From NCBI GenBank assembly GCA_016209155.1, contig JACQWU010000196.1:1-20841 (forward strand): DNA of 20,841 nucleotides. Reading direction: 5' to 3'. Numbering within the stretch: the first letter of the stretch is position 1; each line of letters opens with the position of its first letter. Of this stretch, positions 3,375 through 20,023 are shown piece after piece. This stretch comes from Candidatus Desantisiibacteriota bacterium (lineage in GTDB: Bacteria; JACRDZ01). Under the pieces are notes generated by a model, which worked only from the letters and a program-made list of their open reading frames with translations, was not told the origin of the DNA and made no database searches. A program made the position numbers and the translations under genes.

Positions 3375-5099
3375 ATGTTCAAAAAAAGCATTTCGCTAAA
3401 TTTTATTTTACTAAGTTTCTCATTATTAATTTTGTTAATTTTAGTTGTTCCTGAAATTAAACAAACAGAGGCCGCTGTTGAAATATCCGCTATTAAATTG
3501 TTAATTCCAAGAAGTAATATTGTTGTAATGAGAAAATCAGTAAGTATTATAGGTACGGTTAGTGATGAGGGTCTTAAAGGAATTAGTATTTTAATTAATA
3601 ATGAACCAAGAAAATTAGCTAAAGTAAAAAATGGAATGTTTTATGCTAATCTCTCTCTTGATCCGGGTTTAAACAAAATTACAATTAAAGGGGAAGAAAA
3701 GGATGTGGGGATTTCCACGCTGGATGTGTTTTATAAAGATGCCGGTACAAAAATTCCTCCTGACATAAATAAAATGTTCACGGTTTTTTATACACATGAT
3801 ACTGTTGAAAAAGAATCAGAATGTGACCAATGTCATGATTTTGCGGAACGAACCTTTAATAAAATGAAAAAGGGAGAAATTTCGTGCACCAGCGAACAGT
3901 GCCATAAAAGCATAAGTTCAAAAGCATATGAAGTTGTGCACGGTCCTGTCGCAACAGATGCATGCAACGCATGTCATACTCCGCATGGTTCAGTCAATAA
4001 ATTTGAGCTGGTAACAACAGGAAGTCCTTTATGTTACAGATGTCATACTGATAAAGAGGCAGCATTTGCGCAGAGTTATATACACGGACCGGTTGGCGGC
4101 GGCGACTGTATAGCCTGTCATGACCCGCATGGTTCCAAATTTAAATTTTCTTTAAGAAAATGGGGTGCGGAATTGTGTTATATGTGTCATCAGGGTAATA
4201 AAGCTGAAGGAAAGTATGTTCACGGGCCTGTGGCGGCAAATGATTGTAACGTATGTCACAATCCTCACGGTTCACCTAATCGTTATCAGCTGGAAGAAGC
4301 GGGAGCTGATTTATGTTATATGTGCCATCAGGAAAAAAAGGCGGCTTTTCAGAAAGAATTTGTACATCAACCGGTAGCCAAAGGAGAATGTTCACGCTGT
4401 CATACAGCACATTCTTCAGATAATAAATCTCAACTTTTAAAACCGAATGGTTTTGAGTTATGTAATGAGCTTTGCCATGTGGGTGAAGGTAAAAAGGGCA
4501 AAAATGTTAAAGTTCCTCATCCTCCTGTAGCTCAGGGTAAATGCACCGAATGTCACGATGCGCACGGGACAGATATAAAATATCATTTATTCAGAGCAGG
4601 GGCAGAGCTTTGCTATGAGTGTCATCAATCTATGAAAACAAGAGTACTGGCAAAATATCCGCATGGGCCGGTCATACAGGGAGATTGTGTGGCATGTCAT
4701 AATGCTCATGGTTCAGATTTTACAAAAATATTAATTAAAGAATTTCCAAAAGATTTTTATACACCTTTTGAAGTTATTAAATATGAAATATGTTTCAATT
4801 GCCATCAGAAAACAGTTGTATTGGATGAATTTACTACTACTTTGACTGATTTCAGAAACGGCAGTCAGAACCTTCATTATGCGCATGTGAACAGAAAAAA
4901 AGGTAGATCCTGCAGAGCCTGCCATGAAATGCATTCTTCTGATCAGGAAAAACATATTCGAAAGGAAATCCCTTTTAGCGAATTCTGGAGCTATTCGATT
5001 TTATTTACAAAAACTCCGACAGGCGGAAAATGTGTTGTCGGATGTCATAAACCGCGTGCTTATGATAGAGAGAATGCCATCGATAGAAAAGAATGGTAA
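3375..5099 (+). CDS. Exported multiheme cytochrome c, 16 heme motifs, Ig-like N-domain and doubled-CXXCH repeats
   Basis: A 574-residue secreted cytochrome. Residues 1-33 form a signal peptide. Residues about 35-122 look like an Ig-like/glucodextranase-B-like beta domain (VSIIGTV, then GLNKITI, then LDVFYKD). Heme attachment cysteines start at residues 150, 171, 197, 220, 245, 268, 291, 314, 339, 363, 390, 413, 438, 473, 513 and 553. Thirteen are CX2CH, two are CX3CH (363, 553) and one is CX4CH (171). From 197 to 438 they alternate at 22-27 residues in a two-heme unit of about 46-51 residues: HGPVA, CxxCHxPHGS, then LCYxCH, as in the doubled-CXXCH family. The free histidine in HGPV probably supplies a distal heme ligand. 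The AGGAG ribosome site lies before the ATG. Likely a periplasmic or surface electron carrier; the partner and final location are unknown. Confidence 0.93.
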   Translation: MFKKSISLNFILLSFSLLILLILVVPEIKQTEAAVEISAIKLLIPRSNIVVMRKSVSIIGTVSDEGLKGISILINNEPRKLAKVKNGMFYANLSLDPGLNKITIKGEEKDVGISTLDVFYKDAGTKIPPDINKMFTVFYTHDTVEKESECDQCHDFAERTFNKMKKGEISCTSEQCHKSISSKAYEVVHGPVATDACNACHTPHGSVNKFELVTTGSPLCYRCHTDKEAAFAQSYIHGPVGGGDCIACHDPHGSKFKFSLRKWGAELCYMCHQGNKAEGKYVHGPVAANDCNVCHNPHGSPNRYQLEEAGADLCYMCHQEKKAAFQKEFVHQPVAKGECSRCHTAHSSDNKSQLLKPNGFELCNELCHVGEGKKGKNVKVPHPPVAQGKCTECHDAHGTDIKYHLFRAGAELCYECHQSMKTRVLAKYPHGPVIQGDCVACHNAHGSDFTKILIKEFPKDFYTPFEVIKYEICFNCHQKTVVLDEFTTTLTDFRNGSQNLHYAHVNRKKGRSCRACHEMHSSDQEKHIRKEIPFSEFWSYSILFTKTPTGGKCVVGCHKPRAYDRENAIDRKEW

Positions 5100-5157
5100 A
5101 ACGGTTAAATAGATAATCCCGTATATCCTGAAGCATTGGAAATTAAAACATATATTA

Positions 5158-5248
5158 GGCTGAAGGCCGAAGGCTGAAGAAAGATAATAATTAGTTAAAA
5201 TATTTATACTTTACTCTAAAAGTCTTCAGTCTAAGATACTTCAGCCTT
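5158..5248. repeat. Inverted pair of short GGCTGAAG repeats
   Basis: GGCTGAAG occurs at 5158-5165 and again within AAGGCTGAAG at 5170-5179. The exact reverse complement CTTCAGCCTT stands at 5239-5248, so a 10-base perfect inverted repeat brackets about 59 AT-rich bases just before the ribosome site of the next gene. The same word recurs at 16573-16590. It looks like a small dispersed intergenic repeat rather than an operator, though a hairpin in the leader of the gene at 5270 is possible. Confidence 0.6.
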
Positions 5249-5269
5249 AGATTAAAAAAGGAGTTAAAG

Positions 5270-6613
5270 ATGGGTATGATAAATAAAAAAAATTTCTGGA
5301 CAGCAATAATTCTGCTGTTTTTGTTAAATACAGCTATTGTTCCGGCCCAGGCTTTTAATAATGTAAGAAAAGGAGAGAAAGCTCCTGGTTTTACAGCCAA
5401 TAAAATTGACGGGGTATCTTTCTCCCTGGATTCATTAATAGGGAAAAAAGCCGTTATACTTTTTTTCTGGAAGCTTGAGATATCAGGAGAGGCAAAAGAA
5501 GGCGAATCATCAGGTAAAGTTTATGATGCAAGCACTAAATGGATACAGGAAATAGCTGCTTTGCAGAAAATGAACAGCAAATATAAAACTGACGGGCTTG
5601 AGATTATTGGCGTAACAGCTCCTGTAAAATCAGTTTATGACAAACAGAATAAAAATGTCAGAAATCCTGATTTTACACAAGATGAAATTACTGCTATAAA
5701 TAAATATTTAAAAGATAATGAGATTACTTTTACTGTTATTTTAGATGAAGGGCTGAAAATATATAATGATTACGGAGTGGTTCCTTTCCCCAGCACTGCA
5801 ATTATTAATACTGAAGGTATTATTATTCATGAATTATCAAGTTATCCCACATTCGGAGGGGAAAAAATTCTGGAGGAAAATATAAAAATTGCAACCGGTC
5901 TTGTGAAACCTGCTGAAGGGAAAAAAACGGAAAAATATGTTCCAAAACCAAAAGCCTCTGAACATTATAAAAAAGCAGTGCAGTTTCGTGAAAAAGATAA
6001 AATAGATAAAACAATTGAGGAACTTAAATTAGCTGTGCAGGAAGACCCTAAATATATTGACCCTCATAAAATTCTGGCTGCTATTTACAGGGAAAAAAAA
6101 GAGACTGAAAATGCAATGATAGAACTTGCCACACTTCTTGAGCTTGAACCTGAGAATCCGATGAATCATATATTGTATGGTGATTTTTCATTGGAAAATG
6201 GAATGCCGGAAGACGCAAAAAAGGAATATGAACTGGCTATTAAAGGTGATACGACAGGGACTGAATATATCGGACGCGGGGGAGAAGCAAAAAAGAGAAT
6301 CAGGAAAATAGCCTCAGGAGATGCTTATTACGGATTGGGGATGCTGGCGGTAAAAGAAAAGAAAAAGGATGAAGCCATTGAATATTTTTTGAAAGCGCTT
6401 ACTTTTTTTGAAGGGAATACAAGTGAAGGAGATATGATTGAGCAGATGAGTAAACGTAAAGAAATTCATCCTAATCAGCCTAAAGCTCATTATGAATTAG
6501 GTATATTGTATTTGGAAAAAGGTGATGAGGATAAATCCATTAAAGAATTTAAAGAAGGTATATCATCATATCAGACTATTATAAAAAAATTATTAAAGCA
6601 AAAATGGGATTAA
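5270..6613 (+). CDS. Exported thioredoxin-fold (redoxin-like) and TPR protein lacking all cysteines
   Basis: A 447-residue protein with a signal peptide (residues 1-28, ending PAQA). Residues about 32-210 follow the AhpC/TSA-TlpA pattern: KGEKAPGFTANKIDG, LIGKKAVILFFW, LEIIGVTAP, and YGVVPFPSTAIINTEG with the fold's conserved cis-proline at 174. Where the family has WCxxC after FFW, this protein reads KLEISGE, and no cysteine occurs anywhere in the chain. It therefore cannot do thiol redox chemistry. A linker (about 212-228) leads to TPR repeats from about 229 to 432, including AIEYFLKALTFF and AHYELGILYLEKGDEDKSI. The ribosome site AAAGGAG precedes ATG 5270; a second ATG at 5276 is possible. 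It lies between two cytochromes of the same family, so a chaperone or scaffold role in their assembly is plausible but unproven. Confidence 0.85.
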   Translation: MGMINKKNFWTAIILLFLLNTAIVPAQAFNNVRKGEKAPGFTANKIDGVSFSLDSLIGKKAVILFFWKLEISGEAKEGESSGKVYDASTKWIQEIAALQKMNSKYKTDGLEIIGVTAPVKSVYDKQNKNVRNPDFTQDEITAINKYLKDNEITFTVILDEGLKIYNDYGVVPFPSTAIINTEGIIIHELSSYPTFGGEKILEENIKIATGLVKPAEGKKTEKYVPKPKASEHYKKAVQFREKDKIDKTIEELKLAVQEDPKYIDPHKILAAIYREKKETENAMIELATLLELEPENPMNHILYGDFSLENGMPEDAKKEYELAIKGDTTGTEYIGRGGEAKKRIRKIASGDAYYGLGMLAVKEKKKDEAIEYFLKALTFFEGNTSEGDMIEQMSKRKEIHPNQPKAHYELGILYLEKGDEDKSIKEFKEGISSYQTIIKKLLKQKWD

Positions 6614-6692
6614 CCAAAATGTCCTGGAAATCGGTCTTTATACCTTAAGCTGCAAGTGAATAGAGTCTAACTTTAAGGGAGATAGAGAGGAA

Positions 6693-7439
6693 ATGATGAA
6701 AAGATTGGGAAAAGCTATAATATTATTGAGTATTTTTTTCTATACTAATATTTTATTATCAGCGGAAGCGGATACTAAAATAAAACTTTTAAGTCCAACC
6801 AATATGGCTATTGTTACTCAGGAGGTAAGTGTTGTTATTGGCGAAATAAAAGGTGCGGATGCGGTTGAACTGGTAATAAATTCAAAGGATAAGCATACGC
6901 TGAAAATAGAAAAAAATACATTCTATGATAGAATTAATCTTAAGAGCGGTGAGAATAAAATAAAAATTAGTGCTTTGAATAAAGGTAAATCCATCGATGC
7001 AATAGAAGTGAAAATTTTTTATACAAAAGATATTAAAGCCAAAAATAATCCAAAAGAATATAGTTTTTTTTATTTTCATACAATGCTGGCAGAAGGGGGA
7101 GAATGTAATGAATGCCATGATTTAAAATTAAGCATTGATAAATATGAATTAAAAAAGGGGGACCGTGGATTATGTTTTAACTGTCATGATGAAAGACTTG
7201 ATCTTAAATATGTACATGGACCTGTTGCCGGAGGGGCCTGCCTATCATGTCATAATCCTCACGGCTCCGAAAATGAATTCACAATAAGATATTCAGGGGA
7301 TAAATTATGCTATTTTTGTCATGAAGAGGAAAGAATGAAAGCAGATCATCTTTCTAAATTAAAACCGGAAGATGCTAAGAAAACCTGCGAAAATTGTCAT
7401 TATGTTCATGGCGGAGATAAAGAATTTTTTATAAAATAA
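6693..7439 (+). CDS. Exported multiheme cytochrome c, 5 heme motifs, Ig-like N-domain
   Basis: A 248-residue secreted cytochrome, the short member of the three-paralog set. It has a signal peptide (about 1-24, ending LLSAEA), then an Ig-like beta domain (about 27-112: KIKLLSPTNMAIVTQ, VSVVIGEI, GENKIKI, IEVKIFYTKD). Five CX2CH motifs start at residues 138, 161, 183, 206 and 232. The two-heme unit KYVHGPVAGGACLSCHNPHG followed by LCYFCH matches the repeat of the 16-heme protein closely, and the phrase around the first heme (FYFHT, then ECNECH) also matches its FYTHD/ECDQCH. AGAGAGGAA precedes the ATG at 6693; a second ATG follows directly at 6696. It probably shares a transcript with the genes at 5270 and 7586, since no clear terminator separates them. 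Confidence 0.92.
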   Translation: MMKRLGKAIILLSIFFYTNILLSAEADTKIKLLSPTNMAIVTQEVSVVIGEIKGADAVELVINSKDKHTLKIEKNTFYDRINLKSGENKIKISALNKGKSIDAIEVKIFYTKDIKAKNNPKEYSFFYFHTMLAEGGECNECHDLKLSIDKYELKKGDRGLCFNCHDERLDLKYVHGPVAGGACLSCHNPHGSENEFTIRYSGDKLCYFCHEEERMKADHLSKLKPEDAKKTCENCHYVHGGDKEFFIK

Positions 7440-7585
7440 TTATTTTACTTCCTCTCTGCCATAATGATAGATATTAAACTACAGAAGCACATAGACGCAT
7501 AGAAAAAATTATGGACATATATATATTAAAGCATAGTTGAACCGGAGTGAAAATTCTATCAAATTTTCGGAGAATAATTTAAAAA

Positions 7586-8761
7586 ATGAAAAAAAAGCTG
7601 TTTATCCTGGCATTGTTTTTTATTTTTTTTAAAATTAATAAACTATATTGCTTAGAAAATGATAAAGTAAAGGTTTTTGAACCTAAAGTTGATAAGATGC
7701 TGGTTACGAGAAGTTCAGTAATAATTGTCGGAGAACGATACGATAAAAATATTAAAATAATAAAAATAAGTATAAACAGTAATGAATATGAAGAGAAGCT
7801 TACAAGCGATGTTTTTCATATACTGGTTAAACTTTTTCCCGGCGAAAATAACATTACTATCTGTTACAGTTCAAAAATATGTTATAATATTGCTATTTAT
7901 TATAAAAAAGAAAGAGATTTTTCTGAAGTCGCAAAACAATTCCCTAAATATATTTTTCATATGGAAAAGACAAAAGAGTTTTGTGAAAAATGCCATATAA
8001 TTGATGCAAATAAAGGCAAAAAAAATGTTTGTTATATATACTGCCACAAAAATATCATAGAAAAAAAAGTTACAAAAGCTCATGGACCGGTAGGAGAAGG
8101 GGCATGTCTTGCATGCCATGATCCTGATGGTGTAAGCTCCGGTTATGCCCCGCTTATATCAGGAGGTAAACTTTGTTATACCTGCCACCAAAGTGTTATA
8201 GAAGGTAAATATCCTCATGCCGCGGCAAAAATGGCGGATTGCATGGGCTGCCATGATCCTCATGGAAGTGAATTCCCTTTTTTTATAAAAGAGAGTGAGA
8301 AAAGTGTTTGTTTTAGATGCCATACTGATATGGGTGAGCGGTCTGTCACCATTTATAATTCAACAAGAACAAAAATTTTGCGTACGGAAGTATATACCGT
8401 AAAATATCAGCATGTGCCTGTAAAAGAAGGAAATTGTTTAAAGTGCCATGATCCGCATGTTTCAGATTTTGGCAGAGCGCATTTGCGAAAAAGAACATCA
8501 GTTTTATGCAAAAGCAGAGAATGTCATCTTCCTATAATCGATAAATTTGATAATCATTTTCATGTTTATGATGTCATTCCGGCATCCGGAGCCCCGGTTA
8601 AATTGCCAAAAGATTTAAGAAAAGATGAATATAACAATGTAGTTTGCTACAGTTGTCATGATCCGCATGGAAGCAACTATAAAGGATTCTTGAAAAAACC
8701 TTACGATCAAATATGTGTATGGTGTCATGATAATATGCCAAAAGTGCAAAAACTATTATGA
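7586..8761 (+). CDS. Exported multiheme cytochrome c, 10 heme motifs, Ig-like N-domain
   Basis: A 391-residue secreted cytochrome, third of the paralog set. It has a signal peptide (about 1-22) and an Ig-like beta domain (about 27-108) carrying two non-heme cysteines (93 and 99). Heme motifs start at residues 133, 149, 174, 197, 219, 242, 284, 308, 354 and 377. Eight are CX2CH; 149 is CX3CH (CYIYCH) and 308 is CX4CH (CKSRECH). The HGPVGEGACLACHDP and CMGCHDPHGS units are of the doubled-CXXCH type, but longer inserts after residues 246 and 314 break the regular spacing. The ribosome site is a modest CGGAG at 7568-7572, 13 bases from the ATG and just after a small GAAAATT/AATTTTC hairpin (7549-7568). 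Role as for its paralogs: an electron-transfer protein outside the inner membrane. Confidence 0.92.
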   Translation: MKKKLFILALFFIFFKINKLYCLENDKVKVFEPKVDKMLVTRSSVIIVGERYDKNIKIIKISINSNEYEEKLTSDVFHILVKLFPGENNITICYSSKICYNIAIYYKKERDFSEVAKQFPKYIFHMEKTKEFCEKCHIIDANKGKKNVCYIYCHKNIIEKKVTKAHGPVGEGACLACHDPDGVSSGYAPLISGGKLCYTCHQSVIEGKYPHAAAKMADCMGCHDPHGSEFPFFIKESEKSVCFRCHTDMGERSVTIYNSTRTKILRTEVYTVKYQHVPVKEGNCLKCHDPHVSDFGRAHLRKRTSVLCKSRECHLPIIDKFDNHFHVYDVIPASGAPVKLPKDLRKDEYNNVVCYSCHDPHGSNYKGFLKKPYDQICVWCHDNMPKVQKLL

Positions 8762-8770
8762 ATTTTCCAT

Positions 8771-8844
8771 GCGAGCAAAGTTAAACAATCTAAAACCTTT
8801 ATTTTGCAAGAGATTGCTTCGTCATTTCACTCCTTGCAATGACA
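8771..8844. repeat. Relic of a dispersed palindromic (MITE/REP-like) repeat
   Basis: The stretch 8810-8844 starts GAGATTGCTTCGTCA and ends CTTGCAATGACA. From memory, this closely matches a non-coding repeat common in many bacterial genomes, whose usual form reads TGTCATTGCGAGG on one end and GAAGCAATCTC on the other. Upstream, TGCGAGCAAAG (8770-8780) and ACAATCT (8785-8791) are degraded pieces of the same end words in inverted orientation. No transposase is encoded here. It occupies most of the 247-base gap 8762-9008 before the promoter. Confidence 0.65.
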
Positions 8845-8878
8845 GATTCCAGTGATAACTGAAAAGTTTCCTTTTTGC

Positions 8879-8907
8879 TTGACATGAAAAATATTGTATG
8901 GTATAAT
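8879..8907 (+). promoter_or_regulatory. Full-consensus sigma70 promoter for the 9009 operon
   Basis: TTGACA (8879-8884), exactly 17 bases, then TATAAT (8902-8907) is a perfect match to the housekeeping consensus. The leader to the ATG at 9009 would be about 95 bases and includes an AAAGGAGG ribosome site. It would drive the membrane protein, the NHL genes and possibly the 14-heme cytochrome. It begins 34 bases after the dispersed repeat. Confidence 0.8.
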
Positions 8908-9008
8908 GTTAATGAATAAAATATCCATAATAGCCTTAATTTTAAAATTGAAATATTTAAATTTAAATTAAATAAAATAAAATTTTCAAAGGAGGTAGGG
9001 AAAATTAT

Positions 9009-9425
9009 ATGAAAGAGCGATTAGAAAAAGGCAGTAAGAAAAAACATCCGGCAATAGCTGCACTGGCATCGGTAATATTACCTGGTGCCGGACAGGCTTA
9101 TAATCGAGAGATGACACGATCCCTGGTTTTAGTTGTCATTGCCATTAGTATGATAGCATGGTTTGTTAAAATGCAAATTAGTTACAATAGAGCATATGAA
9201 TCGATGATGAAATTGGAAGGGGTCAGAGAAATTGCAATGGTGTATGCGCGTGCTCAAGTTCCTTATACTCTTATTCCGCTGGCTCTGTATTTAGGATTGG
9301 TTGTTTTCAGCGCTTATGATGCTTATGTTTTTGCTGCATATATATTAAAAACAGTAATGATAAAACCAAAAGAAGATGAGGATGAAACAAAAAAGAAAGA
9401 AGATGAGGCTAAGAAGAAAAGTTGA
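9009..9425 (+). CDS. Small inner-membrane protein with GAGQxYN motif (TM2/DUF5683-like), unknown function
   Basis: A 138-residue membrane protein. Residues about 14-32 read AALASVILPGAGQAYNRE; this LPG-x-GQ-x-YN motif at the first helix is seen in TM2-type and DUF5683-like small membrane proteins. Two further hydrophobic segments lie at about 38-53 and 88-116. The tail (about 119-138) is a lysine/glutamate-rich run, probably cytoplasmic. The start is set by AAAGGAGGTAGGG before ATG 9009. It opens the operon read from the promoter at 8879 and stops 12 bases before the NHL gene. The function is unknown; its position next to exported propeller and cytochrome genes suggests a membrane-side role in their export or anchoring. 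Confidence 0.75.
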   Translation: MKERLEKGSKKKHPAIAALASVILPGAGQAYNREMTRSLVLVVIAISMIAWFVKMQISYNRAYESMMKLEGVREIAMVYARAQVPYTLIPLALYLGLVVFSAYDAYVFAAYILKTVMIKPKEDEDETKKKEDEAKKKS

Positions 9426-9437
9426 TCTGAGGAATGA

Positions 9438-10460
9438 ATGTATTTAATAAAAAAAATATACAAAGAAAAATATATTAAAAAAAATACCGGATTATTTTTA
9501 ATATATTTTATAACAATATTATTACAATATTTTTTTTCTGTTCAAGTAAAAGCAGAATTTAAAAAAGGGCAGCTTCAGGTCGCAACACGTAAAGTTCAAC
9601 TGCTTACACAGCTTAGAGCTGAACAATGCGGAGCACCAAGAGCTTTTGACAACCCCCGCGGAATTTATGATGACAATGATAATGAGGTTTTATATGTTAT
9701 TGCAAAACCAAGCGGCCCTGTATATAAATTTGATTTACGAAATGATTATAAATTTTTAGAGGAAATAGGAACAGGTACTGCGTTCAGCAATGATTTGATG
9801 GATATTCGTGTTAGTGAGAATGGCGATATTTATGTTGTGGACGCAAGGAAGAATCAGATTTTTATTTTTAATGCGGAAGGTAATCTTAAACAGATAATTA
9901 ACGCAAAAGATAATCGCAAGAAAAAAGAGAAGGAATTAGGAATTGTTTCTATTGATTTTAATAATAAAGGAGATATTTTTTTAAGCGATAGAGGCGGACA
10001 AGGTGTTCAGGTTTTAGACGCAGAAGGTAATTACCTGTATCAAATTGTTAAAGTATCATCAGGAAAAGAAGAATTTGGATTTCCCAGTATTTCACAGCTA
10101 AAGCTAAACAGTAATGATGATATATATGTCCTGGATAATTTGATGTATAAAGTAATTAAATTTACACCAAAAGGGAAGACACTTCTTATTTTTGGAGGAA
10201 GAGGTGATGCTGCAGGTAAATTTATTGATGCCACAGGAATGAATATTGATAATAAAGATAGAATTTATATTGTCGAACAGTTAACCGGAACAATACAAGT
10301 TTTTGATCGTGATGGCAATTTTCTTCACGTTCTTGTCAATGAAAATGAAGGAAGGCTTGTTTTAGATTCTCCTTCGAGAATAGCATTGGATAAGACAGGC
10401 AGAATCTATGTAATGGAACCAATGAGGGATAGACTGACAGTTTTAAAATCTATTGATTAA
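9438..10460 (+). CDS. Exported NHL-repeat (six-bladed beta-propeller-like) protein
   Basis: A 340-residue protein with an unusually long basic N-region, a hydrophobic core (about 18-34) and a likely signal cleavage after VKA near residue 39. From about 60 on it is built of repeated strands with the NHL signature: NGDIYVVDARKNQIFIFNAEG, then KGDIFLSDRGGQGVQVLD, NDDIYVLDN, KDRIYIVEQLTGTIQVFDRDG and TGRIYVMEP, each preceded by a hydrophobic strand. About six blades fit. NHL propellers bind proteins or ligands and are often found next to surface cytochrome genes in metal-reducing bacteria. The CTGAGGA ribosome site supports ATG 9438. A second, damaged copy follows 29 bases later. Binding to the large cytochrome encoded downstream is an inference from position. 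Confidence 0.87.
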   Translation: MYLIKKIYKEKYIKKNTGLFLIYFITILLQYFFSVQVKAEFKKGQLQVATRKVQLLTQLRAEQCGAPRAFDNPRGIYDDNDNEVLYVIAKPSGPVYKFDLRNDYKFLEEIGTGTAFSNDLMDIRVSENGDIYVVDARKNQIFIFNAEGNLKQIINAKDNRKKKEKELGIVSIDFNNKGDIFLSDRGGQGVQVLDAEGNYLYQIVKVSSGKEEFGFPSISQLKLNSNDDIYVLDNLMYKVIKFTPKGKTLLIFGGRGDAAGKFIDATGMNIDNKDRIYIVEQLTGTIQVFDRDGNFLHVLVNENEGRLVLDSPSRIALDKTGRIYVMEPMRDRLTVLKSID

Positions 10461-10489
10461 TATAAAACTTTAAATCGGAGGAAGTTTGT

Positions 10490-11334
10490 ATGGGAAAAAA
10501 TTTCGGAAAAGCGTATCGAAAATGGATAGTATGGGTTCTGGGAATACTGACTATTTCAACAAATATTTTTTTTACAGCTGTTCTTTATGCTGAAGAGCCT
10601 GCTGCACCTGCAATAGGTACTCGAAAAGTAAAATTATTAAAACGGATAAACGGGCAGGATCAAGGTGCTCCGGCAAGTTGTAATAATCCATTTACTGTCT
10701 ATGTTGATAAGGAGAGAAATCTATTGTATATAGTAAGAACAGGTAATGGTCCTGTTGATAGATTTGACATAGTTGACAATTATAAATATGTAGGTACAAT
10801 AGCAGATAGTCCTGATATAAAAATGTCATATGTACTTGATGTCACAACGGACAGGAATGGAAATATTTATGTGCTTGACGCAAGACGGAATAAAATATAT
10901 GTTTTTGATAATCAGGGAGTATTAAAACAAACAATAATTCCAAGAGATAATCGTCCGGATGCCAGTGCTTTGAGTATTGTCGGTATTTCATTCAGCAGTA
11001 AGGGGGATATGTATCTTGCGGATAAAGGCGGTTCAGGTGTTCAGGTGCTTGATTGGGAACAATTTTTGGCGGAAGAGGCGATATAGCCGGAAAATTTATT
11101 GATGCAGTAACTATTGGTATTGACAGTAAAGATCGTGTTTACGTGCTTGAAGCTTCAACAGGTACAGTGCAGGTTTTTGACAAAGACGGCAATTTTCTTC
11201 ATATTTTAACAGATGAAAATGGCGGAAGATTAGTACTTCTTGCTCCTGAGCGAATGGCATTCGATGCAAAGGGAAACATGTATGTTTTAGAAAGATTACA
11301 CAGCAGAGTTTCTGTTTTTCAGTTTATAGATTAA
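10490..11334 (+). pseudogene. Second NHL beta-propeller gene, broken by internal deletion and frameshift
   Basis: A paralog of the gene at 9438 with its own GGAGG ribosome site and signal peptide (cleavage near LYAEEP). It matches the intact copy from TRKVKLL through KGGSGVQVLD. At about 11051-11055 the frame then runs into a stop at 11084-11086. The homologous remainder resumes one base out of frame: TIFGGRGDIAGKFIDA, then DRVYVLE, GTVQVFDKDGNFLHIL, and the end VFQFID at 11334. Set against the intact copy, about 53 residues are missing at the junction, about one propeller blade, so roughly 160 bases were lost. The 3' part has no ribosome site and only a TTG at 11053, so it is unlikely to be made separately. 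The alternative is an assembly or sequencing error over a repeated stretch. Confidence 0.8.
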
Positions 11335-11346
11335 ACTTAGCTATTT

Positions 11347-11395
11347 ATTCAGGTTGACATGCTGAAGATGTAAGGTGACTTTAAAATACCTGAAT
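11347..11395. repeat. Short inverted repeat upstream of the 14-heme cytochrome
   Basis: ATTCAGGT (11347-11354) is the exact reverse complement of ACCTGAAT (11388-11395), separated by 33 bases. The loop is long and no T tract follows, so it is not a good terminator. It may be a regulator site or chance in AT-rich sequence. Confidence 0.35.
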
Positions 11396-11406
11396 AGTTA
11401 CTAACG

Positions 11407-11438
11407 TATATCCGGATAAAGTTATATAACCGGATATA
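11407..11438. promoter_or_regulatory. Inverted repeat in the leader of the 14-heme cytochrome gene
   Basis: TATATCCGG (11407-11415) and CCGGATATA (11430-11438) are exact reverse complements around a 14-base spacer, about 75 bases before the ATG at 11514. No T run follows. It could be an operator or an mRNA hairpin controlling the large cytochrome gene. The GC core within AT-rich surroundings makes chance less likely, but no regulator is known. Confidence 0.45.
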
Positions 11439-11513
11439 TAATTTAAATTGAAAGGGGTGAATAAAACAAAACGAGAAAAATCTTAAATTGTTATTTAAAA
11501 AGGAGGAGTATTT

Positions 11514-14500
11514 ATGAGAAGTAAAATGAGTAGCTATTTGTATGTTTTTTTGTTACTAATAACAGCATTAGTATTGTATCCGATTAGTTTTATAGAAGCA
11601 ACAGGTATTGTTGACTCAGGACACAATATGTTACGTCAGAGCAATTTTACTGATACAGAGAGTGGAAAAGCGGGAGTTTGTTCTTTCTGTCATATACCGC
11701 ATTCTACTGGCGCAGGCATGGTCACAACTTCTCAACCTGACGGAGTTGTGAGAATCGTAACAGGAGCAGTTGGTGTTATATGTAGTAGTTGTCATGGAAG
11801 AACGATCGGTAGAGGATCAGCTCCATATTTTGCCGATGCTAACAATCCATTTATTTTTTCCGGTGCGCAATTTAATCACCCTCTAATGGATAATGATTCA
11901 GATTTTTATGGTACTGATCAATTAGCCGGTTATACTACACTTACCTCAGTAAACACTGGAACAAAATTTGGCGGAACAAAACAGTGGTTATCAGGTTGGC
12001 CTGCAACTGGTAGAGCAAGAAGAGGTCTTCAGAATATGGGTGATACAACTATGATAGAATGTACATCCTGTCATAATGTGCATTCAGTAACCCCCGGACT
12101 CTTGTTTGATCAAGATGGATCAAATAATGCAGGACTATTTAACGGTAAAGGTTCAAGCAGAAAATTCTTGCGCGCATTACCATTTGACACAATGGCTGCA
12201 GTTGGTAATGAACTGGAAAACAGACCGGATCAAAATGATCTACATCCTAAACAGGTGTTTTGCGAATACTGTCATATTGGAAGAGCACGAATGGGTACAG
12301 GTCCATGGAATACAACAACAATTGACGGTAGCCTTTTCTCAACCCATCCAATTGGTATACCTGGTCCTGGCGTAACTGATAATGGCAGAAATAATCGTAA
12401 AATAATTGATGATAATAAAGGTTGGGATAGCAGCTTGGTTATTGATCCTATGTTTAAAACAGGTGATACGACTATGGTTCAAGACGGCGGGAGAACAGGT
12501 CATACAGGGTTCATTAATGCAGGTGCAGGTAACGGTGACAGAACTGGAATGGGTTTTGGAACTACCAGATTAACCGGTGTCATAATATGTCAGTCATGTC
12601 ATCGGCCGCACAGCACAAGGGCTAACGCATTACCGGGCCAAAGTCACGATGGTGCTATTATTTCAGATCCGCAGTTGATGTTTGATTCTATAAGACAGGA
12701 TTTATTAGTTGAAACAAACAGAGCAAGCGATGGTTATAATCGATTGTGCGAAAATTGTCATTCATACAGACCATTTTTAGCAGTTAGAGCAACTAATAAT
12801 CTTACGGGTGATTCTCCAACTATGGTTGGACATCCATTAAAACATCATAAATATGGTGCAGGCAGTTATCCAGCTACTGTAGATTGGGTTATTGCAAGTG
12901 CGAGCGCATCAGCAACATGTCAGGATGATGATGATACAGGCGGAGATTCAATAACTATTCCTACAAACTGGCCAACAGGCGGAACATCAAATTTACAAAA
13001 TCAAGTAGTATGTTTGTCATGTCATGAAGTACATGGTGCAAAACCTCGCACTAAATTATTAAGAGCAGTGCCACTGTGCGTTGAATGTCATGACGGACCA
13101 ATTAAGAAATTGGGAATTACTCATCCTGTTCAGGTTGGACTTGCAAGTCCGGATGGCGGAACATGGCCTGATCAGGCTTCATTCTCTTTGTTTACACCAC
13201 CACAGTATGATACAGGATCAACCTATGATATAATTAGAAGTCCGGAAAAAATGTATCCTACTCTTACTTATGCAGTAAATTCCGGGTATGCTACATTTAA
13301 ATCAATTATGGTTGCTAATAGTGGTCTTGGGAATGGTGGTACTTTTGCAGTCAGAATAGATTGCGGAACATGTCATGATTATATTAACGGAAATATTCAT
13401 TATGATATTGCACGCAGACGTGATCCTCAAGGAGAAGTTAATTCTATATCTTTAGCTCGTTATGATACAGCAACAACTCCTGTATATGCCGCACGCAGAC
13501 ATAGACACAGACCACAACCTAACGCAGGTACAGGAAACATCGAAGATCCAAATGCTAATTCAGAAATATGTGTAGCATGTCATACTCTGGATAACTTTGG
13601 ATACAGGGATGATGAGACAATTGTAAATCGTGAAAATGTTGCTCAAACAGGTAACGAAGGTGAAGATAATGGACAATCAGCAAATCCATCACCCTGGATT
13701 AAGGAATATAGCATTAATCAGACAGGTAAATGGTTAGCTGGTGTTGTGTTTTTTGCTGATGGTAACCCAACAGAACGGGCTACTACCGGTACAACAAACC
13801 TGATGGAACCTGAAGCTAATTCCGGACTTAGCGCAAGACTCGGAACACATGCCGCTGGAGTTCGTGTTACACAGGATGGAAGTCAGGGAACAGGTAAAAA
13901 ATCAAGATTGACATGGGTTTATGTTGGAAGATGGGGTGATACTACAGGAACAGCCAAAGAAGATCCTCTATATGCAGGTTCAGGAACAGGTGATCCATGT
14001 AGAAAAGCCTTCACTGGAAAGTATTCAAAATGGGGACCTGCAATTGATAATCTTGGTCCAGTTAATACTGTAAGAGAAGCAGCAAGAGGCAGTGGTAATG
14101 TTATATGTCAATCATGTCATATTCCTCATTATGCTGCAGCAGGATTAGTTGAGTATAATTCAGGTTCTATTAATAAAGAAGCTTCACCTCATAGTGCATT
14201 ATTATATGCAACTCAGGCAGAATCTTTCTTATGCCGAAACTGTCATGATCAGGGCGGCGGAGTTGTTCATCCGTTTAATCAGCCTACACAAGCTAAATAT
14301 ATCGGGAATAGAGATTTAGTTGATGATGGACATCTTGACTGGTATAATAGTACAGCTTATGTTGGCGGTGCACGCGGTATGCGTCGTTCTGATAAAGAGC
14401 ATATAATGGAATTAACAAGAGAAGGTGAAACACGCCGAGTATCTGATAGTACAGCTCCATTTTATTTACGCGGCGGTACTTTACCTGCTGAATGGGGAAC

Positions 14501-14861
14501 TACATATTTGGATGCAGGCGGTTATAGATGGGGAGTTAATATGGCTCATGGACCTGCAAAACCAGCAAATTATCCTCGGTCAGGCGGCAGCTTGAATAAT
14601 GGAGTTGGTGTAGCTTTACCGGGATCAGCCGTTGATACAACTTTTGCCGGTGGTTTTAGTGTAATGGTTTGTGATTCCTGCCATGCTCCGCATGCAGCCG
14701 GTACAACTATGGGTACATATATTCTTGAAGGTCAGGATTCAACTGTTCCAAAAATTGGATCTTCTAACAAAGCTGATTATCCATTTGATCATGGTAATGG
14801 TAAAGCACAGCCTTCAAGACCAAATGATGCTCCAACTTGTATCTTATGTCATATTCAATAG
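11514..14861 (+). CDS. Giant exported multiheme cytochrome c, 14 heme motifs in seven pairs
   Basis: A 1115-residue secreted protein with a signal peptide (about 1-30) and 14 CX2CH motifs. Cysteines start at residues 56, 90, 183, 250, 359, 412, 500, 522, 617, 686, 865, 907, 1053 and 1109; two others (469, 829) are not in heme motifs. The motifs fall into seven pairs. The first member usually reads CxxCH then a dipeptide and His (IPHS, NVHS, RPHS, EVHG, IPHY, APHA); the second is a plain CxxCH. One pair (500/522) has the same 22-23 residue spacing as the compact cytochromes; the others are stretched by inserts rich in Gly, Thr, Asn and Asp. The last motif is only two residues from the C-terminus. 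AAAGGAGGAG precedes the ATG. Density is about one heme per 80 residues, which suggests a large surface-exposed electron-transfer protein. No close named relative was recognised. Confidence 0.93.
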   Translation: MRSKMSSYLYVFLLLITALVLYPISFIEATGIVDSGHNMLRQSNFTDTESGKAGVCSFCHIPHSTGAGMVTTSQPDGVVRIVTGAVGVICSSCHGRTIGRGSAPYFADANNPFIFSGAQFNHPLMDNDSDFYGTDQLAGYTTLTSVNTGTKFGGTKQWLSGWPATGRARRGLQNMGDTTMIECTSCHNVHSVTPGLLFDQDGSNNAGLFNGKGSSRKFLRALPFDTMAAVGNELENRPDQNDLHPKQVFCEYCHIGRARMGTGPWNTTTIDGSLFSTHPIGIPGPGVTDNGRNNRKIIDDNKGWDSSLVIDPMFKTGDTTMVQDGGRTGHTGFINAGAGNGDRTGMGFGTTRLTGVIICQSCHRPHSTRANALPGQSHDGAIISDPQLMFDSIRQDLLVETNRASDGYNRLCENCHSYRPFLAVRATNNLTGDSPTMVGHPLKHHKYGAGSYPATVDWVIASASASATCQDDDDTGGDSITIPTNWPTGGTSNLQNQVVCLSCHEVHGAKPRTKLLRAVPLCVECHDGPIKKLGITHPVQVGLASPDGGTWPDQASFSLFTPPQYDTGSTYDIIRSPEKMYPTLTYAVNSGYATFKSIMVANSGLGNGGTFAVRIDCGTCHDYINGNIHYDIARRRDPQGEVNSISLARYDTATTPVYAARRHRHRPQPNAGTGNIEDPNANSEICVACHTLDNFGYRDDETIVNRENVAQTGNEGEDNGQSANPSPWIKEYSINQTGKWLAGVVFFADGNPTERATTGTTNLMEPEANSGLSARLGTHAAGVRVTQDGSQGTGKKSRLTWVYVGRWGDTTGTAKEDPLYAGSGTGDPCRKAFTGKYSKWGPAIDNLGPVNTVREAARGSGNVICQSCHIPHYAAAGLVEYNSGSINKEASPHSALLYATQAESFLCRNCHDQGGGVVHPFNQPTQAKYIGNRDLVDDGHLDWYNSTAYVGGARGMRRSDKEHIMELTREGETRRVSDSTAPFYLRGGTLPAEWGTTYLDAGGYRWGVNMAHGPAKPANYPRSGGSLNNGVGVALPGSAVDTTFAGGFSVMVCDSCHAPHAAGTTMGTYILEGQDSTVPKIGSSNKADYPFDHGNGKAQPSRPNDAPTCILCHIQ

Positions 14862-14905
14862 TTAAGTGAATTAGTTGTAATTGTTAGTATTGATTTGTAG
14901 TTATA

Positions 14906-14941
14906 AAGGGTCAGGGACTTTAGTTAATGTCCCTGACCCTT
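14906..14941 (+). terminator. Long hairpin after the 14-heme cytochrome gene, probable terminator
   Basis: AAGGGTCAGGGAC (14906-14918) pairs perfectly over 13 bases with GTCCCTGACCCTT (14929-14941) around a 10-base loop. It begins 45 bases after the stop codon, and CTTT and an A run follow. The T tract is short, so termination may be partial. The GGGTCAGGGAC word is also typical of dispersed palindromes, so it may be both. Confidence 0.7.
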
Positions 14942-15063
14942 CTTTAAAAAAATAATTCATTATAGATTATTCAAATGGTTTTGCGGTTGATTTATTTAAA
15001 CTAAAAGGAGTTTTTCAGGGAAAGATATACCTTTATAATTTAAAGGTGAAAGGAGAAATTACA

Positions 15064-16566
15064 GTGGCAAGAAACAGAAAATATAGAATAAATATAGTGT
15101 TCATTATAGGAGTTATAGGATTAATTTCACTTAAGAGTATTTCAGCTGAAGAAGTTTTTATGCCTAACATGCATATGCAACTGGGCTGTGAGACATGCCA
15201 TCAGACTCCGGCTGAAGTTGGTGTGGACACTAGAGAAACCGTAAAGCTAACATCTCCTCAAAATGATGTTATTGCTTTATGTGATCCTTGCCATACAAAT
15301 CAGGAAGCACACCCTGTTGCGGTTAACCCAAAGGATACAAATATGATTGTTCCTGATCATCTTCCTTTGGGACTTAAAGGAACTCCTTCAGAAGGCAAAA
15401 TTATTTGTACAACCTGTCATGATATTCACGCGGAATTTTCAAGCGGTAATACACAGAAGATAGAATTGTGCAAGGATTGTCATGGTGCAGATCTTTTGAA
15501 ACGGTCACCTCATAAGGGTGATGAAAAATCCTGTTCCTTCTGTCATGGCGCGGATCCAAAAAAGCAGGCTCAGGAAGGTGCTACTACAATTAAATTGGAA
15601 ATAGGTTCTTTATGTAATTTTTGCCATGAAAATGAATTATCGCCTCATTTTTTAAAATTTTCAAGTTTATTTTCAGATGTTGATTTAAAGGATGCTTTAA
15701 AGAAGATGACTTTACCATTATCCTCAAGCAAAAAATTAACATGCGTAACCTGTCATAATCCGCATGGGAGTGAAAATCCTAAAAAACATTATTTAAGAGA
15801 AGAATTTGTATCTTTAGGCGGAAAATCTAATAAAATTAATCCTCATTGGACAGATACTTTTTGTACTTCCTGTCATGATAAAACAGGTACGCCTCAAGAG
15901 ACTACTTTTAAATTTAATAATAATCTGGATGAATCCTGCTTATGGTGTCATAAAGGACAGGAAGCTGCTGAGCTTCATCCATATGGTATCCCTGCAAAAG
16001 ACAGTAAATTCACAAAGATTAATAAAGATAAAATGAAAATAGTGAAAGATACTATTTCATGTATTACATGCCATGGTAAAGATTGTGAAAAGAAAAAGGC
16101 AACAGTCGCGAAAAATTTTCTGCGCGGCGGTCCGTATGTTGAAAGAAATGATTTATGCTTTAACTGTCATATAAAAGAAGTATTTAAAAAAATAAATCCT
16201 CATAGACAGAAGGACCCTCAGGGTAAAATTAATTATGATGTATGTACTGATTGTCATGTAGGCGTACCAGATGAAAATAAGAAGGAAAATCTGGCGCTAA
16301 AAGGCAATGAAGTTTTCTTATGTTTGCGATGTCATGCGGACAGACCTCATCCCGGGACAAACGTTAAAACAGGTTTAGGGGTAAATCATATTGTGGTGCC
16401 GCGTGAAATTCCAAATAAAATGGCAGTTCCAAAAGATGTGCCTTTAAGCAAAAAAGGCAGTCTTATGTGCAGTTCATGCCATCCAAGTCATTTATCCGGT
16501 GTAACTAAAAAAGAGTCTAAACGGCTTATGTCTAATGAATGCACAGTGTGTCATGTTGGAATATAA
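15064..16566 (+). CDS. Exported multiheme cytochrome c, 15 heme motifs
   Basis: A 500-residue secreted cytochrome when started at GTG 15064. The AAAGGAG ribosome site at 15049-15055 lies inside the longer frame that could start at GTG 15046, so 15064 is preferred. A signal peptide (about 1-28, ending SISA) is followed almost at once by the first heme; there is no Ig-like domain. Fifteen CX2CH motifs start at residues 42, 73, 115, 136, 157, 184, 227, 267, 292, 333, 365, 394, 420, 469 and 493. CTTCHDIH and CVTCHNPHGS recall the doubled-CXXCH family, but spacing is irregular. Pro-rich stretches resembling VPDHLPLGLKG and VPKDVPLSKKG precede the third and the fourteenth hemes, a hint of an internal duplication. 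It is probably a periplasmic electron-transfer protein, and its transcript ends at the hairpin at 16617-16656. Confidence 0.92.
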   Translation: MARNRKYRINIVFIIGVIGLISLKSISAEEVFMPNMHMQLGCETCHQTPAEVGVDTRETVKLTSPQNDVIALCDPCHTNQEAHPVAVNPKDTNMIVPDHLPLGLKGTPSEGKIICTTCHDIHAEFSSGNTQKIELCKDCHGADLLKRSPHKGDEKSCSFCHGADPKKQAQEGATTIKLEIGSLCNFCHENELSPHFLKFSSLFSDVDLKDALKKMTLPLSSSKKLTCVTCHNPHGSENPKKHYLREEFVSLGGKSNKINPHWTDTFCTSCHDKTGTPQETTFKFNNNLDESCLWCHKGQEAAELHPYGIPAKDSKFTKINKDKMKIVKDTISCITCHGKDCEKKKATVAKNFLRGGPYVERNDLCFNCHIKEVFKKINPHRQKDPQGKINYDVCTDCHVGVPDENKKENLALKGNEVFLCLRCHADRPHPGTNVKTGLGVNHIVVPREIPNKMAVPKDVPLSKKGSLMCSSCHPSHLSGVTKKESKRLMSNECTVCHVGI

Positions 16567-16572
16567 TTTTTT

Positions 16573-16590
16573 GACTGAAGGCTGAAGGCT
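16573..16590. repeat. Short tandem of the CTGAAGG repeat
   Basis: GACTGAAGGCTGAAGGCT holds the word CTGAAGG twice in tandem, seven bases after the stop of the 15-heme gene. It is the same word as the inverted repeats at 5158-5248, which shows that the element is dispersed and intergenic. Confidence 0.55.
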
Positions 16591-16616
16591 GTTGTATATG
16601 TTATGAAAAAAAAAGA

Positions 16617-16656
16617 AAAAAGTGGTAAAGCAGGGAAACTTGTTTTACCACTTTTT
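16617..16656. terminator. Intrinsic terminator after the 15-heme cytochrome gene
   Basis: AAAAAGTGGTAAA (16617-16629) pairs perfectly with TTTACCACTTTTT (16644-16656) around a 14-base loop. The descending arm runs into a T tract on the plus strand, and an A-rich run precedes the stem, so it could work in both directions. It separates the cytochrome from the TPR lipoprotein 36 bases downstream. Confidence 0.85.
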
Positions 16657-16692
16657 ATTTAAGTTGTCTTAGAAAAAAAGGATGGGGGATTT

Positions 16693-17610
16693 ATGAATAA
16701 GTTTATTAAATTATTTAATATTTTTTTGATTTTATTTTTATTCACCGGATGTACGCAAAGTCAAAGACAAATTAGTGAACGTGAAAAAGACAAAGAGATT
16801 CAAAAAGGTATGGCAAAAATGATTTCAAGAGAATTTCTTGCCGCAAAAGAAATATTCTCAAAAATAATAGTTGATTTCCCTGATTATAAAGAAGCGCATT
16901 ATTATCTTGGTTTAACGAATGTTGAATTAAAAAAACTGGATGAAACTTATATTAATTTTAGAACTGTATTGGAATTAGATCCTGAATATGATTTAGGGAT
17001 AATGATGGAAATATTTTATATAAGATTCACATATTATAATAAAATGGACTATCCAATGGCGATAAGGGAGATAAATAAATTTTCCAGATTATATCCAAAA
17101 CATCCCAAAAATGCTGAATTCTTATTATGGATTGCCGATGGATATAGAAATAAAGGTGAGTTTGATGAGGCGCTAAAAAGTTACAGGAAACTTATTAATT
17201 CAACACCTGAGGGCAATGAATTTCGTAAAACAGCTGTTGAAATGGCAAAATTCATTGAAAGTAATTCTGATTTTAACCGTGAACCTTTAAAGCTTTTTGC
17301 ACAGGCTAAAGCTAAGCATACTCCTGACGATGCTCTGGAAATTTTCAGGACAATTTTAGAGGATTATCCAAAAGCAAGAATTATTCCTCTGGTAAAACTG
17401 GAAATTGCTCTTTGTTTTGATCATGGGCGCATGAATTTATTTGAGAGCGCCGCAGTATATTATAAAGCTTTAATTAAGGAATATCCTGACAGTGAATATG
17501 CGATAGTAGCTAAAAAAAATTATGAAAGAATTGAGTCGATATTCGGACAAAAAGATAAAATTTTCAGCGATACGCATAATATAATGAAGAAAAAAGTCAA
17601 AGGGAAATAG
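16693..17610 (+). CDS. TPR-repeat lipoprotein (BamD/YfiO-like architecture)
   Basis: A 305-residue lipoprotein: the signal ends in the lipobox LFTGC with the lipidated cysteine at residue 20. The mature part is helical throughout with repeated TPR-like units: AAKEIFSKIIVDFPDYKEAH, YLGLTNVELKKLDETYINF, FDEALKSYRKLINSTPEG, DALEIFRTILEDYPKARI and AAVYYKALIKEYPDSEYAI. The recurring FPDY/YPDSE words recall BamD-type outer-membrane TPR lipoproteins, but BamD is shorter (about 245 residues) and the match is not specific. The C-terminus is basic. GGGGGA precedes the ATG at 16693. The terminator before it implies its own promoter or readthrough. A role as an outer-membrane scaffold, perhaps for cytochrome assembly, is inferred from position only. 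Confidence 0.83.
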   Translation: MNKFIKLFNIFLILFLFTGCTQSQRQISEREKDKEIQKGMAKMISREFLAAKEIFSKIIVDFPDYKEAHYYLGLTNVELKKLDETYINFRTVLELDPEYDLGIMMEIFYIRFTYYNKMDYPMAIREINKFSRLYPKHPKNAEFLLWIADGYRNKGEFDEALKSYRKLINSTPEGNEFRKTAVEMAKFIESNSDFNREPLKLFAQAKAKHTPDDALEIFRTILEDYPKARIIPLVKLEIALCFDHGRMNLFESAAVYYKALIKEYPDSEYAIVAKKNYERIESIFGQKDKIFSDTHNIMKKKVKGK

Positions 17611-17618
17611 ATGGTGGT

Positions 17619-17646
17619 GTAGAGACACGCCATGGCGTGTCTCTAC
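17619..17646. repeat. 28-base perfect palindrome between convergent genes
   Basis: GTAGAGACACGCC (17619-17631), then AT, then GGCGTGTCTCTAC (17634-17646): a perfect 28-base palindrome. It starts 8 bases after the stop of the TPR lipoprotein and ends 8 bases before the stop of the minus-strand oxidoreductase. No T tract follows on either strand, so it is a weak terminator at best. Palindromes of the form GTAGAGAC...GTCTCTAC occur many times in several bacterial genomes, so this is probably a dispersed REP-like repeat. Confidence 0.75.
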
Positions 17647-20000: not shown

Positions 20001-20023
20001 TTTTTTATCCTATTAAATAAAAT

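Follow-up and report, generated by a model that had tools for sequence, protein, structure and literature searches.

A conserved multiheme cytochrome locus in Candidatus Desantisiibacteriota predicted to combine an MtrA/OetA-like cytochrome with a 14-heme member of the OmcE superfamily

The stretch of DNA analyzed here (the window; 20,841 nt, GC content of 36%) is a contig from a Candidatus Desantisiibacteriota bacterium (genome G000, contig C128; the assembly totals 3.08 Mb in 352 contigs and is 79% complete). On its forward strand, between positions 3375 and 16566, the window contained genes predicted to encode five exported cytochromes with 16, 5, 10, 14, and 15 heme motifs (here termed CytA16, CytB5, CytC10, CytD14, and CytE15), accompanied by accessory genes. 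It is fairly probable that these genes serve extracellular electron transfer in a respiring bacterium not yet cultivated, and that they combine an MtrA/OetA-like heme wire with a giant OmcE-type cytochrome. The locus is best filed as a conserved variant among the extracellular electron-transfer loci already known. A preliminary description of the window had reported five secreted cytochromes with accessory genes and had likened the set to surface electron-transfer loci, without a named Mtr, Pcc, or Omc conduit. All of these genes were found between positions 3375 and 17610, and the comparison stood. The locus is neither an Mtr nor an Oet cluster, as no MtrB-type porin, 26-heme lipoprotein, or peptidyl-prolyl isomerase (PPIase) was seen in it.

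The arrangement recurred in each of the other three genomes sampled from the phylum (G001, G002, and G003; 3 of the 60 relatives checked, with few genomes of this phylum sampled), two of which are the public metagenome-assembled genomes (MAGs) Dive96_bin2.216 and STD1_102. At all three sites (G001:C49, G003:C42, and G002:C77), the genes followed the order CytA (15 to 16 motifs), a redoxin-TPR protein, CytB (5 motifs), CytC (10 motifs), a DUF5683 protein, an NHL propeller, CytD (14 motifs), CytE (15 motifs), and a TPR protein, with the exception of DUF5683, which was not seen in the G002 block. As judged from sequence, the window carries ten genes in a conserved block, including an apparently inactivated duplicate, and their heme counts, family relations, and gene linkage are likewise established. 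The preliminary description had allowed that the neighbors might prove to be scattered at random in other genomes; instead, every member of the phylum that was sampled had the same order and heme counts. In G001 and G003, additional CytD14 paralogs followed the block, one set again lying behind an NHL gene.

Strict CXXCH motifs numbered 13, 5, 8, 14, and 15 from CytA to CytE (55 in total). Inclusion of CX3CH and CX4CH motifs gave 16, 5, 10, 14, and 15, so that the 60 heme motifs reported earlier were reached as 55 CXXCH plus 5 CX3-4CH. The number of CXXCH motifs expected by chance, estimated from shuffled versions of each protein, had a mean of 0.01 to 0.11 and a maximum of 2. Among 12 CytA homologs from several phyla, the CX4CH motif at C171 was invariant and the last CX3CH motif (C553) was nearly so; because they are conserved across phyla, both are probably real heme sites. 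By eye, all five cytochromes had a signal-like N-terminal helix and none had a lipobox.

CytD14 (positions 11514 to 14861, forward strand; 1115 residues) was predicted to be an exported cytochrome of the OmcE superfamily. Members of the CytD family carried 14 hemes in 784 to 1115 residues, and all 14 CXXCH motifs were present in each of the ten N-terminally complete members (an eleventh was truncated). Exactly 14 conserved histidine columns lay outside the motifs (37, 63, 122, 190, 278, 366, 440, 507, 537, 629, 779, 872, 919, and 1060), a number that would allow each heme to be bis-His ligated. The motifs alternated between CxxCHxxH and plain CxxCH, so that there were seven pairs; some members, including that of the window, had the distal histidine of pair five displaced a few residues further along. 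One distal histidine lay ahead of the first heme and none lay past the last, the same topology as in aligned OmcE sequences. The family profile matched OmcE of Geobacter sulfurreducens (7TFS, E=4.5e-14) and 9YUQ (16 chains, E=7.8e-15). Each of these aligned to the profile twice, over an N-terminal stretch and over a stretch covering the C-terminal hemes, so that the homology included the N-terminal distal-His region and the first heme. Both structures share with CytD the N-terminal histidine followed by CxxCHxxH/CxxCH pairs but have 4 hemes in 218 to 232 residues, whereas CytD14 has 14 in 1115; the OmcE feature of four hemes in about 220 residues was not found in CytD.

Because paired CxxCHxxH motifs occur in CytA as well, eight 4-heme proteins were used to build a hidden Markov model (HMM) of the N-terminal module of OmcE as a more specific test. 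This model matched the N termini of 26 of 51 CytD-type proteins (8 of them the training set) and 2 of 95 CytA-type proteins, with no matches among 15 CytE-type proteins or 63 unclassified cytochromes. An HMM of the second di-heme unit of OmcE was rejected as a test of descent, as it was too generic and also matched CytA, CytB, CytC, and CytE; repeat similarity alone is therefore no proof of OmcE descent. CytD14 paralogs were encoded on contigs C328 and C117 of the same genome (43 to 45%), with CytD proteins of other genomes at 27 to 32%. As these paralogs are closer to CytD14 than any CytD elsewhere, their similarities indicate that CytD is expanded within lineages. The interfacial heme of OmcE is reported to be coordinated by a histidine of the neighboring subunit (PMC12954529), and this arrangement, together with the shared distal-His topology, makes head-to-tail assembly of CytD14 plausible by analogy. 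No description of a 14-heme OmcE relative or OmcE-family locus was found in the literature outside subscription papers.

CytA16 (3375 to 5099, forward strand; 574 residues) was predicted to be an exported 15/16-heme cytochrome with an N-terminal immunoglobulin (Ig)-like domain (Paired_CXXCH_1, E=2e-79). Its orthologs were 51 to 54% identical within the phylum and 43 to 47% identical in other phyla. The best match of the CytA profile among solved structures was a chain of 6R2Q (MtrCAB; E=5e-30, in two overlapping stretches) that is mislabelled in the PDB file and that we take to be MtrA. At E<=1e-20, the profile matched 46 of 386 sampled genomes, and the top matches outside the phylum retained 15 hemes; named loci came from MAGs of Rokubacteria, Deltaproteobacteria, Zixibacteria, and Actinomycetota. 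CytA is a member of a widespread and apparently undescribed family of 15-heme cytochromes (CytA15) related to MtrA and OetA.

The CytA15 module was defined as a cytochrome with about 15 hemes, a first motif of CX4CH, a last motif of CX3CH, and a conserved C-terminal block, followed by a redoxin-TPR gene, and all of these features were found at the window locus. The redoxin-TPR protein of the window (5270 to 6613, forward strand; 447 residues; AhpC-TSA, E=1.1e-13, plus TPR) contained zero cysteines. Of the two TPR proteins reported in the preliminary description, both had TPRs, and this one proved to be a fusion with a redoxin domain. Because the CXXC motif was lost in every redoxin-TPR homolog seen (e.g., FWATWSPRSLAQL in locus L096), a thiol-reductase role appears unlikely. 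Elsewhere, the module recurred whole or in part as a 4-heme c3 protein, ResB, CcsA, CytA15, redoxin-TPR, CytB5, redoxin-TPR, an 8-heme protein, a histidine kinase, and a sigma54 regulator, with ResB/CcsA often upstream of CytA15 and redoxin-TPR usually downstream. In two Zixibacteria loci (L092 and L094), hem genes followed those for CytA and redoxin-TPR. The literature outside subscription papers yielded no description of a CytA15-redoxin-TPR module.

These neighbors bear on a reading in which CytA, redoxin-TPR, CytB5, and NHL mainly form a cytochrome-maturation or heme-handling module, associated with ResB/CcsA and heme synthesis, and CytD and CytE are the sole electron carriers. Such a role would fit the placement of ResB/CcsA, in many genomes, as the immediate upstream neighbors of CytA15, the heme-biosynthesis operons adjoining the CytA locus in G001 and in the Zixibacteria loci, and the ResA-like fold of the redoxin partner. 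However, that partner lacks the cysteines required of a maturation thiol reductase, a locus with a high heme demand would be just as likely to adjoin ccs and hem genes, and no 15/16-heme cytochrome is known to act as a maturation factor. We regard this reading as quite improbable.

NHL1 (9438 to 10460, forward strand; 340 residues; PF01436, DUF5128) was predicted to be an exported six-bladed beta-propeller. The preliminary description had listed one NHL propeller, overlooking a second, broken NHL gene directly 3' of it (10490 to 11331, forward strand) that matched NHL1 at 39% and 59% in two frames. This second copy had about 47 residues fewer than NHL1 and a frameshift near position 11055; given the deletion and the frameshift, it is a probable pseudogene, representing either a tandem duplicate in decay or an artifact of assembly. 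Across the loci compared, a same-strand NHL gene lay directly upstream of 29 of 50 CytD-type genes, 5 of 91 CytA-type genes, 0 of 15 CytE-type genes, and 3 of 58 others, counts that are biased in that part of the loci were fetched through NHL matches. Among loci from outside the phylum that were fetched by CytD alone, 11 of 13 had NHL upstream. A CytD/OmcE-type gene was present on the same stretch or within ~20 kb in 11 of 18 non-phylum loci selected by CytA, and some of these genes, in loci L096 and L149, encoded OmcE homologs of full length with 4 hemes (match to 7TFS, E=1e-20 and 2e-26, respectively). The NHL counts and the CytA-selected loci together indicate that the association of CytA15 with OmcE-type cytochromes and NHL propellers extends across unrelated bacteria. 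As a separate observation, dense 24- to 38-heme cytochromes were encoded in other phyla (L181, L182, L175, L185, and L186), with an NHL propeller gene directly preceding each of them.

The other three cytochromes of the locus were also encoded on the forward strand. CytB5 (6693 to 7439; 248 residues; 5 CXXCH) was a predicted exported pentaheme cytochrome with an Ig-like domain and syntenic 5-heme homologs; CytB5 itself scored 17.8 bits against the OmcA/MtrC-type decaheme model TIGR03507 (cut-off, 209). CytC10 (7586 to 8761; 391 residues; 8 CXXCH, one CX3CH, and one CX4CH) was a predicted exported decaheme cytochrome with syntenic 10-heme homologs and a paralog (58%) on contig C316. CytE15 (15046 to 16566; 506 residues; 15 CXXCH), also predicted to be exported, had orthologs with 15 hemes in G001 to G003 (39 to 42%) and a weak match to NrfB (E=4e-4).

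The genes of the window included no porin, no quinol oxidase, and no terminal reductase, as the preliminary description had stated. A locus of this composition might also store or distribute electrons in the periplasm or support respiration of a soluble acceptor (nitrite, sulfur, or tetrathionate type), with nothing at the cell surface. The missing porin and lipoboxes agree with such a role, as do the weakly NrfB/NrfA-like character of CytE15 and the match of a DmsE-family model to CytA (155 bits, under the 192-bit cut-off). We consider it unlikely, in that the conserved distal histidine of each CytD14 heme appears to leave no obvious catalytic site, full-length OmcE-type extracellular subunits are encoded in CytA15 loci of other phyla, and a terminal reductase is absent from the locus.

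The preliminary description had also proposed a search of the surrounding genome for a porin-cytochrome module and a quinol oxidase. The quinol side was borne out, with NapC/NrfH-family quinol-dehydrogenase candidates in all four genomes (the G000 copies on contigs C73 and C77), and because these proteins are present, a quinol entry point is predicted to exist outside the locus. Candidate quinol-oxidizing modules, arranged like that of L185, were additionally seen in L054 (G000:C336) and L065 (G000:C77), each comprising a 7- or 8-heme cytochrome, a protein of ~261 to 267 residues (cytochrome b561-like in C336), and an NHL protein.

The search for a porin gave the opposite result and is the first of several points that weigh against extracellular electron transfer through an OmcE-type protein. 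The MtrB/PioB barrel (PF11854) was unmatched in G000 to G003, the window genome being 79% complete, and so was an Oet-like barrel candidate from Malonomonas (L101), in a search with low sensitivity for barrels and no reference OetI. With no porin or barrel at the locus and none detected in the four genomes, the outer-membrane step is unexplained. The window's own CytD14 matched the OmcE N-terminal module weakly (i-E 2.6e-4), and a single-sequence phmmer search with CytD14 found no match in the PDB; its relation to OmcE rests on the family profile, which did match in the PDB. The alternating CxxCHxxH pattern is not specific to OmcE, as it was also present in CytA and other doubled-CXXCH cytochromes. 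AlphaFold2 models had confidence scores (predicted local distance difference test, pLDDT) of 47 for CytA16 (12 sequences) and 25 for CytD14 (3 sequences) and give no structural support. The role of cytochrome filaments as the physiological conduit in Geobacter is itself disputed (PMC11077965).

Comparison with known systems narrowed the novelty of the locus. The idea that it matches nothing known was too strong, as CytA is of the MtrA/OetA type (6R2Q), CytD14 falls in the OmcE superfamily (7TFS), and a published locus of Geoalkalibacter ferrihydriticus is an evident parallel (PMC12016550). That locus (Ga0056053_02426-02431) encodes an MtoA homolog, an OmcE homolog, two NHL proteins, and a putative quinol-oxidizing cytochrome (PMC12016550). 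That it combines an MtoA(MtrA)-type cytochrome with both an OmcE homolog and a pair of NHL proteins makes it the nearest published parallel found. Compared by the text of that paper, it differs in that redoxin-TPR and the 5-, 14-, and 15-heme set are not described there, the OmcE protein is described simply as a homolog, and the putative quinol-oxidizing cytochrome lies inside the locus. With MtrCAB/MtoAB (6R2Q), the window locus shares an MtrA-type cytochrome (CytA), but CytA has 15 to 16 hemes rather than 10, and neither an MtrB/PioB barrel nor an MtrC-type surface lipoprotein was present.

The Oet cluster (OetABI) of syntrophic sulfate reducers and Desulfuromonadales likewise has a six-bladed propeller, a CytA-related 14/16-heme cytochrome, and a large extracellular cytochrome (PMC5539420, PMC10553843), whereas its OetI, 26-heme lipoprotein, and PPIase were not seen at the window locus. 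The window locus could be a divergent Oet cluster (in full, OetA, OetB, OetI, a PPIase, and a six-bladed propeller) from which some components have been lost. The shared propeller fits this origin, and CytA had relatives in the Oet-like loci L185, L186, and L101, namely their 14/16-heme and 26-heme cytochromes (CytA profile, 1e-62 to 4e-133 for L185 and L186; 31% for L101). However, a 26-heme lipoprotein, a PPIase, and a barrel were seen neither at the locus nor in its syntenic relatives, and the CytA15 family stands apart through its redoxin partner, its linkage to Ccs genes, and a C-terminal signature of its own, so that we judge an Oet origin very improbable.

In the preferred reading of an extracellular electron-transfer locus, electrons from quinol would probably enter through NapC/NrfH-type dehydrogenases encoded elsewhere, and the smaller periplasmic cytochromes CytB5, CytC10, and CytE15 would pass them to CytA16. 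This long MtrA/OetA-like heme wire would carry electrons to or across the outer membrane, with the cysteine-free redoxin-TPR protein acting as a dedicated CytA scaffold or assembly partner and not as a thiol reductase. CytD14 would be the outermost element, following the OmcE plan (an N-terminal distal histidine and then CxxCHxxH...CxxCH pairs) with two pairs extended to seven. It may polymerize in the manner of OmcE or serve as a long monomeric wire, and the neighboring NHL propeller would help its export or assembly, or cap it. Filament formation and outer-membrane crossing are thus steps that we infer. The neighboring heme-synthesis and CcsB genes would cover the heme demand.

Two accessory genes complete the block. 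The small membrane protein of the preliminary description was present and is now assigned to the DUF5683 family, as a predicted inner-membrane protein (9009 to 9425, forward strand; 138 residues; PF18935, E=4.5e-8) with homologs (52 to 56%) at the equivalent position in G001 and G003. A BamD/YbgF-like TPR lipoprotein (16693 to 17610, forward strand; 305 residues), syntenic in the relatives, matched TIGR02795 (E=7e-20) and TIGR03302 (E=3e-17), in both cases under the curated cut-offs. A perfect sigma70-like promoter lay at 8879 to 8907 (forward strand; TTGACA-17-TATAAT with an extended -10; 12 of 12 consensus positions), and a terminator-like hairpin of 12 pairs at 17619 to 17646 (forward strand) closed the locus. 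Together, these signals suggest two transcription units, CytA-redoxin-CytB-CytC and DUF5683-NHL-CytD-CytE-TPR.

Upstream of the locus, the window began within hemL (glutamate-1-semialdehyde aminomutase; 1 to 1257, forward strand, truncated at its 5' end by the start of the window; above the cut-off for TIGR00713, E=1e-188). This gene was followed by a TPR lipoprotein (1288 to 1929, forward strand; TPR families) in the same position next to hemL as in G001 and G003. Two small divergent lipoproteins were encoded on the reverse strand, one at 2008 to 2496 (lipobox LITGC; a lipoprotein of equal size at the G001 site) and one at 2535 to 3032 (lipobox FSSC; G001 counterpart 32%, E=5e-13). In G001, the upstream run was CcsB-HemA-HemC-HemD-(NHL/10-heme)-HemB-AhbD-HemL-TPR lipoprotein-two divergent lipoproteins-CytA, and the window kept this order from hemL onward. 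The CcsB-led heme b operon of G001 (L085, 8342 to 18210; G001:C49), directly upstream of the CytA locus, was interrupted by a 10-heme NHL-cytochrome fusion. Downstream, flanking the locus and outside it, two reverse-strand genes (17655 to 20839) resembled glutamate-synthase/FAD-dependent oxidoreductase families; one encoded an NAD(P)-binding iron-sulfur flavoprotein (781 residues), and the other, by inspection, a flavin mononucleotide-domain protein cut by the window edge. Large cytochromes were also encoded elsewhere. Another large cytochrome locus of G000 (L058, G000:C141; 1648 to 9266, reverse strand) contained adjacent genes for a 27-heme cytochrome (1195 residues) and a right-handed beta-helix/NosD-like 10-heme cytochrome (1340 residues), and giant multiheme proteins were found in L083 (G001:C83, 2969 to 16702; 2838 residues, 22 heme motifs) and L059 (G000:C156, 5056 to 12038; at least 2327 residues, 15 heme motifs).

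What makes the locus interesting is less its sheer number of hemes than the giant OmcE-type cytochrome, the association of that cytochrome with an NHL gene, and the partnership with a dead redoxin. Three elements that are usually considered apart (an MtrA-like wire, a nanowire cytochrome of the OmcE type, and an NHL propeller) share one recurring neighborhood across phyla, in which a conserved cysteine-less redoxin-TPR protein usually accompanies the 15-heme cytochrome. A bolder proposal, which is tentative and rather unlikely, is that CytD14 and the paralogs in tandem with it act as giant nanowire subunits of the OmcE type (~3.5 fused OmcE units, seven di-heme pairs), assembled by NHL and fed by CytA15 with its dead redoxin-TPR partner, in a general, undescribed filament-type export that would operate without an MtrB-type porin. 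The predicted nanowire subunits would be several-fold longer than those with structures in a 2026 review (PMC12954529), and the propeller encoded directly upstream is a concrete candidate for the unknown partner of OmcE-type filaments. If CytD14 forms filaments, whether heme chains are lengthened by polymerizing small units or by fusing units would become directly testable.

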